Shown here in pieces: positions 11,980 through 37,405 of a DNA stretch of 39,504 bases. A program made the position numbers and the translations under genes. The stretch spans positions 1 to 39,504 of the forward strand of contig CAMVEA010000006.1 of assembly GCA_947166405.1 (NCBI GenBank), given 5' to 3'. Origin of the DNA: an uncultured Candidatus Saccharibacteria bacterium (GTDB lineage: Bacteria > Patescibacteriota > Saccharimonadia > Saccharimonadales > Saccharimonadaceae). The notes beneath the pieces are model-generated. The model was not told where the DNA came from. It was given only the letters and a program-made list of their open reading frames with translations, and made no database searches. Within the stretch, counting starts at the first letter, position 1. The number at the start of each line of letters is the position of its first letter.

Positions 11980-12241
11980 ATGCCTACATTATAACACGTT
12001 TATTCCAAAATCAACCCCAAAATTCAAAAATTTTCTTTCCTTCTACTTCAGCGATTCAACCAACAACAAACACACCACCCAAATAAGCCCCACCACACCA
12101 GAACAATGCAATATTCTATATATTATACCTAACAATCAAATTGTTCACCTCACTAAACAATTCACATCAAACTCCACAAATTGTTCACTTTTCAATTGCA
12201 TATTCTAATTGATTTAAGATGATATCTACCTAGGGGACGAA

Positions 12242-14092
12242 CTACTGCGCTAGGCAGCGGACGCTAAATCCGAAGCCCTTATTGCCGTAGTTGGACGGGC
12301 TGACGAGGCTACTGTTGAAGTCCAAGTAGTACGCGCCGTTGCTACTGTCCGCAGACTTAGACCAGTAACCGCCGATGCTGCCTCGAGTGACGACCGACGA
12401 GCCGAGGAAGAGGCCGGAGTAGAGGAAATTGTTCGGGTAAGTACGAAATGCAATAGAAGCATTTGAACCCTCAGGAGAACCTATCCAGGATGGTCTAGTT
12501 TCGTTACCGTAGTTAGCTGGAGTGGATAATCCAAGTGATAAGCCTAGTTTGTAGAAGTTATTCTTCTCGGCTGCCATATTGGTCTTATCTCCACTTTCTG
12601 GAAGAGTCCATCCAGTTGGACAAATGTCACCTGCAGTGACAGAGTTATTTGTACTAGTACTATATTTACCATTACCGGCTGTAGCAGAATACCAGTTGTA
12701 GTAGTTGCCATATGAGTAGATATTGGCGTCAGTTGCCGTGTTTGTTCCTCTTTCTGTGGTATTGCCAGTGTATAGCATGGATTGGTCAAAGCAAGCAGCA
12801 GAATTGGTCGTACACCATGCAGTAGAAGTTGGGTTAGTTGAAGCAGAGAGGTGGTTGGAGGTAGTTGGATTTGTTGCGTCATATATGTTTGTGAGTGGGA
12901 GTGAAGGACTATTGGTGTTGGTGGCTGATAGTTCTATATCATTATTGCTGCTGTCTTTATCAGCTAGACGTAAGTTTTCAATCATCCAGCATTTACCGTC
13001 TGCGAGCTTGGCAATGGCGTAGGTGTTGTTGTCACGCTGATCTGTGAGAGCGGAGACTGAGGAGAGGTTGGCAGTGCCGTCTATTGGTGCCAGAGTGAGA
13101 GAGCTACATACGCTAGCTACTTTGGTTGAGTCTTGGAGATTACCCTGGCTCTTTACCCATACAGCGTAGAGCGAGAGGCCGGGGTTAGTGCCAGTGTAGT
13201 CAGCAGTGTTTAATGTAATGGTTTCCATCGGACCATAGAACTTAGCCTCAGGATTCGTGGCATAGTCAAACTTATCACTCCAGCCAGCGAAGCCATAGCC
13301 AGTACGGCTGAAGTTGGATGGGAGGAGCATTACAGAAGCGGCGACACTTTGCTCTGCCATAGTGCCTTGGTAATCTGATACGTTGGCATAGTATTTAATC
13401 TTTCCTGACTCTGTAGATTGTGGCGTTATTGGAGCTGGCTCTGTGGATGGATGAACGAGGGTGTATTTGACTTTGCCGGTGTAGGTATCGGCTGGTTGGG
13501 AGAGACTGGCGTAGACGGCGTAGGTGGTCTCCAGGCTACTGCCAGTACCGCCCTCGGCATCGGTGGTGTTGCCATAGGTAGCGACCTTGGTATATGTATC
13601 TGGTACTATATGATAATTAGTGAAATCTTCGGTATCGTTAGTGCCATCCATAATAGTAGGAGCATATGTACCAGCTACGGCTGATAACTTCATAGCCCAG
13701 CTTGATACGTCTGTGGTGCTGGTACCAGTAGTGAGTCCTGTGGAGATGGTATTGGTGGCAGTATTGCCGACCAGCTTGGTGTGGTTCTCGCCTGAATACT
13801 GATCACCAGTAAATCCTATCGCATAGATGCTAAAGCCACCTGGGTCATTACAGTAAGTCGTAAGGGTAGTCTTGCCGATTCCTGATTCATAAGTACCAGG
13901 TTGAAGAGAGGTAGTATGCTCATCTCCTTCAATGATAGTACCACCCATTGTGCAGGCTGTAGGAATGGTGATATTAATCTCATCCACGACATCGTCAGCA
14001 CTAGCATTTATAGACGCTGTTGCTACACCAGCAATCATCGTCATGCTTAATAATCCCCCCGTAATAATATAGTCTACATGTAGTTTATCCAC
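12242..14092 (-). CDS. Secreted FISUMP-domain surface protein (candidate DGR target 1)
   Basis: Signal peptide; YGFAGWSDKF...LSLYAVWVK InlB-repeat-like segment; TDQRDNNTYAIAKLADGKCWMIENLRLAD, CPTGWTLPESGD, GFSVRCLAQ. Confidence 0.85.
   Translation of the reverse strand: MDKLHVDYIITGGLLSMTMIAGVATASINASADDVVDEINITIPTACTMGGTIIEGDEHTTSLQPGTYESGIGKTTLTTYCNDPGGFSIYAIGFTGDQYSGENHTKLVGNTATNTISTGLTTGTSTTDVSSWAMKLSAVAGTYAPTIMDGTNDTEDFTNYHIVPDTYTKVATYGNTTDAEGGTGSSLETTYAVYASLSQPADTYTGKVKYTLVHPSTEPAPITPQSTESGKIKYYANVSDYQGTMAEQSVAASVMLLPSNFSRTGYGFAGWSDKFDYATNPEAKFYGPMETITLNTADYTGTNPGLSLYAVWVKSQGNLQDSTKVASVCSSLTLAPIDGTANLSSVSALTDQRDNNTYAIAKLADGKCWMIENLRLADKDSSNNDIELSATNTNSPSLPLTNIYDATNPTTSNHLSASTNPTSTAWCTTNSAACFDQSMLYTGNTTERGTNTATDANIYSYGNYYNWYSATAGNGKYSTSTNNSVTAGDICPTGWTLPESGDKTNMAAEKNNFYKLGLSLGLSTPANYGNETRPSWIGSPEGSNASIAFRTYPNNFLYSGLFLGSSVVTRGSIGGYWSKSADSSNGAYYLDFNSSLVSPSNYGNKGFGFSVRCLAQ
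12272..12418 (-). other. Candidate DGR variable region VR1 (C-terminal coding segment)
   Basis: 147 bp colinear with 35696-35842. 29 differences, 27 at codon positions 1/2 of NNY codons. Followed by 45 bp (12227-12271) identical to 35651-35695. Confidence 0.8.
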
Positions 14093-35665: not shown

Positions 35666-37405
35666 CTACTGCGCTAGGCAGCGGACGCTAAATCCGGCGT
35701 ACTTATTGTAGTAGTCGGACGGGCGGACGCCGCTACTGTAGAAGCTCAAGTAGTACGCGAAGTAGCTATTGTACGCAGACTTAGACCAGTAGCTGCCGTT
35801 GCTACCTCGACTGTCGACCGACGAGCCGTAGACGATGCCGGGGTAGAGGAAATTATTTGGATAAGACCGGTAGGCGGCAGACATAACAGTGCCAGTAGGA
35901 GTAGTACTAGAGCTAGATGTTGAGCCAGTACCACCAAGTGCTATGTCAAGCAAACCAAAGTTCATACTTGCACTTCCACTAGTTGGAAGTGTCCAACCTG
36001 TAGGACATAGGTCACCAGCCGTATTACCACTAGACTTGGAATAAGTACCATTATCAGCAGTAGCAGAATACCAGTTGTAGTAGTTGCCATAGGAATAGGT
36101 ATTAGCAGAAGTTGCTGGGTTTGCTCCTCTTTCTGTGGTATTCCCAGTGTATAGCATGGATTGGTCATAGCAAGCAGCATCTGCACTTGTACACCATGCA
36201 GTAGAAGATGGGTTAGTTGAAGCAGAGAGATGGTTAGAGGTAGTTGGGTTAGTTGCATCGTATATATTGGTAAGTGGTAATGATGGATTGTTGGTGTTAG
36301 TAGCTGATAGTTCTATATCATTGTTACTGCTGTCTTTATCAGCTAGGCGTAGGTTCTCAATCATCCAGCACTTACCGTCTGCGAGTTTGGCGATGGCATA
36401 GGTGTTGTTGTCACGCTGGTCTGTAAGGGCGGAGACGGAGGAGAGGTTGGCAGTGCCATCTATTGGAGCGGTAGTGAGGGAATTGCAGACACTGGCTACT
36501 TTGGAGGAGTCTTGCATGCTGCCAGCGGAGCGGACCCAGACGGCATAGAGAGGCATACCAGTGGAGCTTAGATCATCAGTAGTAATAGTCTCGTTAGGAC
36601 CATAGATTTTGCCACTGCCATCCATGGTGGTACTCCAGCCAGCGAAGCCGTAGCCAGAACGAGAATAGTTAGAAGCCATAAGGGTGACTCTAGAGTTACT
36701 TGAAGCAGTTTGCTCGGCCATGGTGCCTTCTGAATCTAAGGCGTTCTCGGAGTAGCAAATCTTGCCAGCATCGCAAGTGATGGGCTGTGGTGTAGGCTCG
36801 GGGTTGGCTACTGCAGTGAAGTTGATAGTGTTAGTATAAGCGCCAGAGGCTTGGATAGTGGAAGCTTTGGCGGCAATCTTGAACTGGACTGGCGTGGAGC
36901 CTGAACCGTCATTGTTGATTAGCTCTGCACCAGAGGCAGCGGTGTAGAGAGGGAGACCAGAATAATTAGACCAGCTAGTACCAGAGTTGGTAGAGTAGCT
37001 ATAGCCCCAAGTGTTGTCGGTAGTGAGACTAGCTAGGCTAGCATCGGTGGCTAGGCTGGTGAAGAGTTTGGTATCATCTACAGTATTGACTAGATTAGTG
37101 CTGGCGTTGGTGGTGTTGCCGGCGGTGGCAGAGAGAGTATAGCCGTACATGTTGTTAGTACCGACATTAATCGTGATAGTATTGCTATCTGCGGAGTTAC
37201 CTGGAGTGAGGTTGTCAATAATAAGATCAGCCGAGGATAGTGAGATGCGGATAGTGGGGTTCCAGGTAAACTGCAGTTCTACATTATCTTGGTAGGTGAG
37301 AGCATATGAATTGCCAGAGAAGCTAGACAAACCATAGATACAAACAAATCCCAACGCAATCATTGCCGAGATTTTTATAGTCTTCTTGCCATTTTTTGCC
37401 CACAT
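35666..37405 (-). CDS. Secreted FISUMP-domain surface protein (candidate DGR target 2)
   Basis: Signal peptide; paralog of 12242-14092 with identical TDQRDNNTYAIAKLADGKCWMIENLRLADKDSSNNDIELSATNTN and GFSVRCLAQ end. Confidence 0.85.
   Translation of the reverse strand: MWAKNGKKTIKISAMIALGFVCIYGLSSFSGNSYALTYQDNVELQFTWNPTIRISLSSADLIIDNLTPGNSADSNTITINVGTNNMYGYTLSATAGNTTNASTNLVNTVDDTKLFTSLATDASLASLTTDNTWGYSYSTNSGTSWSNYSGLPLYTAASGAELINNDGSGSTPVQFKIAAKASTIQASGAYTNTINFTAVANPEPTPQPITCDAGKICYSENALDSEGTMAEQTASSNSRVTLMASNYSRSGYGFAGWSTTMDGSGKIYGPNETITTDDLSSTGMPLYAVWVRSAGSMQDSSKVASVCNSLTTAPIDGTANLSSVSALTDQRDNNTYAIAKLADGKCWMIENLRLADKDSSNNDIELSATNTNNPSLPLTNIYDATNPTTSNHLSASTNPSSTAWCTSADAACYDQSMLYTGNTTERGANPATSANTYSYGNYYNWYSATADNGTYSKSSGNTAGDLCPTGWTLPTSGSASMNFGLLDIALGGTGSTSSSSTTPTGTVMSAAYRSYPNNFLYPGIVYGSSVDSRGSNGSYWSKSAYNSYFAYYLSFYSSGVRPSDYYNKYAGFSVRCLAQ
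35696..35842 (-). other. Candidate DGR variable region VR2
   Basis: Colinear 147-bp counterpart of VR1; changes almost entirely at codon positions 1/2 of NNY codons. Confidence 0.8.

Follow-up and report, generated by a model that had tools for sequence, protein, structure and literature searches.

The 39,504-nt window examined here, which is contig C6 of a 1.08-Mb Saccharibacteria genome, carries two large FISUMP genes on the minus strand whose 3' ends differ largely at amino-acid-altering sites and close on the same 45 bases. The question raised by this arrangement is whether one element, located elsewhere in the genome, diversifies both ends. The organism, a tiny and probably host-dependent gut bacterium, is represented by a MAG of 95 contigs with an estimated completeness of 97.9% and an estimated contamination of 0.51%, and reading of the translations places the core genes secA, serS, and hisS within the window. 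The features upon which the argument depends are as follows:

12242..14092, minus strand: putative target gene 1, a FISUMP paralog (open reading frame; TIGR02145, E=1.1e-15)
35666..37405, minus strand: putative target gene 2, 579 aa (open reading frame; TIGR02145, E=2.5e-14)
12224..12427, minus strand: VR1, block homologous to the template repeat TR-A (85% identity)
35653..35851, minus strand: VR2, block homologous to TR-A (87% identity)
35696..35842, minus strand: variable zone of VR2, with nearly all adenine-site differences inside
12227..12271, minus strand: invariant 3' tail of VR1, IMH-like, identical to 35651-35695
35651..35695, minus strand: invariant 3' tail of VR2, stop codon included, IMH-like, identical to 12227-12271

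Putative target gene 1 encodes 616 aa when read from a GTG and 600 aa when read from the ATG at 14044. Putative target gene 2 comprises a hydrophobic N-terminus, a List_Bact repeat-like segment, and a C-terminal FISUMP domain ending in VR2; its matches to PF09603 and PF09479 are both weak.

The first-pass annotation had proposed that VR1 and VR2 agree in length and frame, that both are followed by 45 identical bp including the stop codon and 15 non-coding bp, and that an upstream stretch differs between the paralogs by silent changes only, all of which has been borne out. Specifically, the tail consists of 27 coding bases, TAG, and 15 non-coding bases, and it occurs exactly twice, both times on the minus strand, where chance predicts no occurrence. 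The upstream stretch, 60 aa running from APIDGTANLSS to SATNTN, is identical in protein between the two genes and contains 18 synonymous codon differences, the counts at codon positions one, two, and three being 1, 0, and 17. The claim that the ends alone change at amino-acid-altering sites also survived the codon-position comparison along the paralog alignment that had been named as its refutation: differences within the VR block (62 codons) are distributed 16, 11, and 2, whereas those in the FISUMP region upstream of it (205 codons) are distributed 29, 34, and 78, with the switch falling at the VR border (Fisher p=7.6e-7). Synonymous and non-synonymous codons number 1 and 20 in the VR block versus 55 and 42 in the upstream FISUMP region (p=6e-6).

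No RT gene is present within the window. Elsewhere in the genome, three cassettes (contigs C29, C7, and C37) each contain a gene for an HTH protein, a DGR-type RT gene, and a template repeat, the three RT genes corresponding to PF00078 matches at three loci. In all three cassettes the HTH-protein gene is followed by the RT gene and then by a directly adjoining repeat on the opposite strand:

L025:6138-6339, strand opposite to the RT: template repeat TR-A (contig C29)
L026:1594-1785, strand opposite to the RT: template repeat
L027:9302-9507, strand opposite to the RT: template repeat

The first 161 bases of TR-B1 (C37) and TR-B2 (C7) are identical. The RTs carry YVDD and IGNLTSQ motifs, as in the 376-aa RT next to TR-A, the SQ lying inside the latter motif, and the best match of the RT profile among solved structures is 8ub7 ('Reverse transcriptase', E=1e-26), the Bordetella DGR RT, with RTs of group II introns and retrons matching far less well. 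Together, the motifs and the best structure match place these RTs, as judged from sequence, within the DGR lineage. The conserved partner is the HTH protein, and no match to an Avd-type accessory protein was found in Pfam, NCBIfam, or PHROGs; Avd is not present in all DGRs and is not a strict requirement. The closest RT relatives among named genomes are those of gut and rumen Saccharibacteria, including Candidatus Nanosyncoccus alces (57% RT identity), while relatives in IMG/VR are distant (identity of 43% or less). Since each template repeat is antisense to its RT, the template RNA would need a promoter of its own, and no single transcript would hold both, as is also the case for the inverted DGRs (PMC3521204).

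Comparison of the VRs with their templates reveals a strong specificity for adenine. Of the 61 TR-A adenines compared, 23 are changed in VR2 and 26 in VR1, whereas in each VR only 3 of the 141 remaining bases differ (p=4e-11 for VR2 and p=6e-13 for VR1). The same pattern holds when the 19 TR-A loci are pooled (440 of 1170 adenines changed versus 115 of 2685 other positions) and when the 16 TR-B loci are pooled (382 of 988 versus 172 of 2046). Individual loci are cleaner still: the local target on C29 has 14 adenine changes and none at 142 other positions, the core of the remote target on C58 has 27 and none, and the mutated core of VR2 has 22 and one. Codons in the variable zone of VR2 are mostly NNC where the template codon is AAC, and positions one and two of AAC are changed in 59% and 47% of cells scored, respectively. 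The varying adenines sit in AAC and AAT codons, while those of AGC, AGT, AAG, and TAC are almost constant, a contrast that reflects selection, template context, or both. The target ORFs are intact and stay open through the VR, which forms their 3' end, and the changes are carried by the AAC and AAT codons.

These data strongly indicate, with a probability of roughly 0.95, that VR1 and VR2 are remote (trans) targets of the DGR whose RT, HTH protein, and TR-A lie on another contig, the link between RT and targets being a sequence match across the 95-contig MAG. RNA of TR-A would be copied by an error-prone RT that places random bases opposite template adenines, and the cDNA, retrohoming in trans, would replace the homologous 3' terminus in target genes whose ends match. 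Rewriting mostly at positions one and two of AAC would allow 15 possible residues and never a stop, and would affect the C-terminal ~60 residues of a FISUMP protein that is putatively secreted, presumably a surface-exposed and perhaps ligand-binding segment.

Half of the B loci have in common fixed non-adenine differences from TR-B, and thus probably descend from a related template absent from the assembly; no template for the divergent VR groups (half of B, and C) was found there. Two sets of VR-like ends with such common differences were noted (C37:7444, C4:4930, C4:7006, C34:1901, and C44:4421 and 6435; C9, C22, C45:2797, C28:7463, C21:13661, C10, and C17), and together they look as though one or two additional TRs, missing from the assembly, had served as their templates.

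The shared tail had been interpreted as an IMH-like segment, a reading that stands in part. The tail lies within the TR/VR homology, with 44 of its 45 bases common to TR-A, and its identity in the two genes thus mainly reflects copying from the template. The single difference, near the 3' edge, is an A in TR-A and a T in almost every VR whose tail is intact, and is consistent with the distinction between IMH* and IMH. A second proposal, that CCTAG...CTAGG within the tail forms the hairpin of a DGR target, must be discarded: this element lies inside the homology, is broken at C5, C47, and C45, and is also present in TR-A, hence is not target-specific. Beyond the homology, 3' of VR2, a different candidate was found:

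35596..35620, minus strand: GC-rich hairpin ATGGTGAGCCC-CAA-GGGCTCGTCGT, candidate target-site stem-loop (p=0.02 versus shuffles)

This hairpin is degraded relative to those of other targets, retaining the core only. Approximately 11 TR-A targets display GAGCCC and GGGCTC separated by TTAA, CCAA, CAA, and similar loops, 45-50 bp past the stop codon and outside the homology, and at C29 and C21 (L025:3559-3670 and L039:11340-11473) this core is extended into a very long imperfect hairpin, with whole-flank fold z values of -8.3 and -6.1, respectively, versus -1.25 for VR2. A strong downstream hairpin is present at five of the 19 TR-A targets (C29, C21, C5, C56, and C15:6029, the last strong but of unrelated sequence); none is found at TR-A, and no clear one at VR1. 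Likewise, relatives have a strong downstream hairpin at about 10 of 34 VRs and at none of their TRs. In BPP-1, efficient retrohoming depends on a structure of this kind lying outside the homology (Guo et al., PMC3240598). Group B tails display an extra short stem around the stop codon (e.g., L027:6700-6760, L026:1750-1790, and L034 near 1092), the sides of which (TAGCAAG/CTTGCTA, GGTAA/TTACC, TTGATG/CATCAA) show apparent compensatory changes by eye.

The state of the hairpins bears upon the alternative that survives best, namely that VR1 and VR2 are former targets, once diversified and no longer rewritten, with a few other loci still active. Each is one AAC codon shorter than the present TR-A, as are 13 of the 19 VRs in all, as though an outdated template length had been retained, and neither is among the five targets with a strong hairpin; given this shortfall and the weak hairpins, both loci may be retired, or used only rarely. 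The length difference could, however, have arisen by slippage in the AAC run, and the presence in the VR2 core of 22 adenine changes and a single change elsewhere argues for little time since the last rewriting. Hairpin strength, moreover, was rejected as a predictor of recent rewriting, for it shows no significant correlation with non-adenine changes (rho 0.34, p 0.16). Retirement of both loci is less likely than not, though well short of negligible, and they may still be rewritten at present.

That one element diversifies several targets, as the first-pass annotation had argued, is supported by the matching template and the DGR-type RT on another contig, and has proved an underestimate. BLAST of VR2 against its own genome returns 32 places; 19 loci can be assigned to TR-A and 16 to TR-B, with up to 9 others of similar sequence, such that up to 44 ORFs, covering 72 kb or 6.7% of the assembly, end in a TR-like block. 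By sequence assignment, about 35 surface-type protein genes across the genome would be DGR targets of TR-A or TR-B. In eight congeners, each searched with its own templates, about 1-8 targets were found per genome. So high a count might be an artefact if the bin mixed several strains or species that contributed a few targets apiece, and the 95 contigs and a size of 1.08 Mb, compared with about 0.7-0.9 Mb for most congeners, are features expected of such a mixture. Estimated contamination is low, however; two TR-A targets lie on one 39.5-kb contig together with core genes; and contigs C20, C45, C28, C21, and C15 each bear targets of both TR-A and TR-B. No pair of target upstream regions is at least 96% identical over 300 bp, which rules out strain duplicates as the source of all targets but one pair: C15:231 and C49:3558, whose downstream flanks are 98.8% identical, may be one duplicated locus and hence not independent. 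A mixture of genomes is accordingly an improbable explanation for the target set.

Upstream of the VRs, the target genes follow a different pattern. When the stretch 900-1700 bp upstream of the VR is compared, its best match among the paralogs carries a VR of the same group 14 times out of 30 (14.4 expected with shuffled labels); when the FISUMP domain is compared, this holds 31 times out of 32 (15.8 expected). Targets thus exchange their N-termini freely but keep a FISUMP domain that corresponds to their template group. One chimeric target, L051:820-1647 (C10:954), joins an upstream FISUMP part of TR-A type to an end of TR-B type. Congeners G047, G051, G018, and others contain many FISUMP genes and have no DGR RT match, which indicates that FISUMP expansion is independent of the DGR. 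Ordinary divergence of FISUMP paralogs by diversifying selection or gene conversion, with no retroelement involved, could draw upon this recombination among shuffled scaffolds and upon the expansion of FISUMP genes in most congeneric genomes, some lacking any RT match, but is highly implausible given that the changes track template adenines rather than codon function, that AGC, AAG, and TAC hardly change, and that TR-A and its RT exist.

An AF2 model of the VR2 FISUMP domain built with relatives included reached pLDDT 72 and pTM 0.76, most of the VR part scoring above 90; pLDDT was 31 when the paralogs alone were used. A fold search of the model against the PDB gave no significant match, and the putative C-type lectin fold of the domain is consequently taken from its family, 4 of 47 members of which also match Lcl_C (formerly DUF1566). 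The best viral matches are FISUMP domains, and no FISUMP relatives were found in IMG/VR.

One tentative reading, for which the odds are somewhat below even, is that the system resembles an immune-receptor repertoire, in which three cassettes hypermutate the binding ends of ~40 secreted FISUMP proteins and recombination, acting independently, swaps their N-terminal scaffolds, for use in tracking or switching host cells or in escape from phage. If this is true, a reduced epibiont would possess diversity both combinatorial and targeted. Host attachment is a likely use of target diversity in an organism that probably depends on another cell. Regardless of use, a single cell with two templates and ~35 natural targets would make the basis of target choice (tail, hairpin, orientation, distance) directly testable; for orientation, an effect is reported in PMC12875486.

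Several comparisons place this system among known DGRs. As in the BPP-1 DGR (mtd, Avd, bRT), TR-to-VR changes are adenine-specific, the VR is 3'-terminal, the tail is IMH-like, and, here at a subset of targets, a candidate hairpin lies just past the TR/VR homology (PMC3240598); the RT profile likewise matches 8ub7. Unlike in BPP-1, targets are many and mostly non-adjacent, the partner is an HTH protein with no Avd match, the TR is antisense to the RT, and the downstream hairpins are longer and mostly without a GRNA loop. Dispersed paralogous trans targets, several cassettes per genome, and 3'-terminal VRs are features in common with the DGRs of Trichodesmium erythraeum (18 TR/VR loci; PMC8867640), Thiohalocapsa PB-PSB1 (15 targets with 21 VRs, called unusually high; PMC10907252), and cyanobacteria (76 remote targets across 21 genomes; PMC7517822). 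Those cellular DGRs diversify signalling or conflict-system proteins, whereas the targets here are FISUMP, putatively secreted proteins, and the ~35 assignable targets (up to ~44) in 1.08 Mb seemingly make up the largest single-genome DGR target set when set against the published genomes compared (at most 18 loci or 21 VRs).

By host type, the system can be likened to the CPR/Patescibacteria DGRs (clade 2), a group in which DGRs are enriched in small, probably episymbiotic bacteria (PMC8144416). The method of Roux et al. (2021) was unable to detect remote targets, and the CPR targets reported were mostly without recognisable domains (PMC8144416), unlike the FISUMP domain recognised here; surveys confined to the RT neighbourhood would miss nearly all of the present target set. 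RT and TR occupy opposite strands in the 'inverted' DGRs of Shewanella, Vibrio, and Photobacterium as well (PMC3521204), but there TR, VR, and target lie on one strand and the RT alone is inverted, while here RT and local target lie on one strand and the TR alone is inverted. This antisense-TR layout may be among the 122 patterns of PMC6642488. In most Saccharibacteria RT loci scanned the TR follows the RT on the opposite strand, whereas in Bacteroidales relatives it is upstream and in the same sense. Of the 39 closest RT loci of other genomes (L095-L133), 35 yielded, under a mechanical test, a local TR/VR pair whose differences favour adenines, again with the TR antisense. Both remote targets and the occurrence of DGRs in candidate-phyla bacteria are already known; new here are the large number of trans targets for so reduced a genome, the inversion of the template, and the shuffling of scaffolds.

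Two further observations concern the window itself. Beside putative target gene 2, at 31895-34166, a DUF262/HNH-like ORF and an EcoRI-type methylase-like ORF, recognised by eye, look like a restriction or defence pair. The stretch at 29157-31617 holds three tRNA genes and two near-identical 65-nt repeats (31368-31432 and 31553-31617), of which the first overlaps the 3' end of a tRNA, and is possibly an integration remnant.
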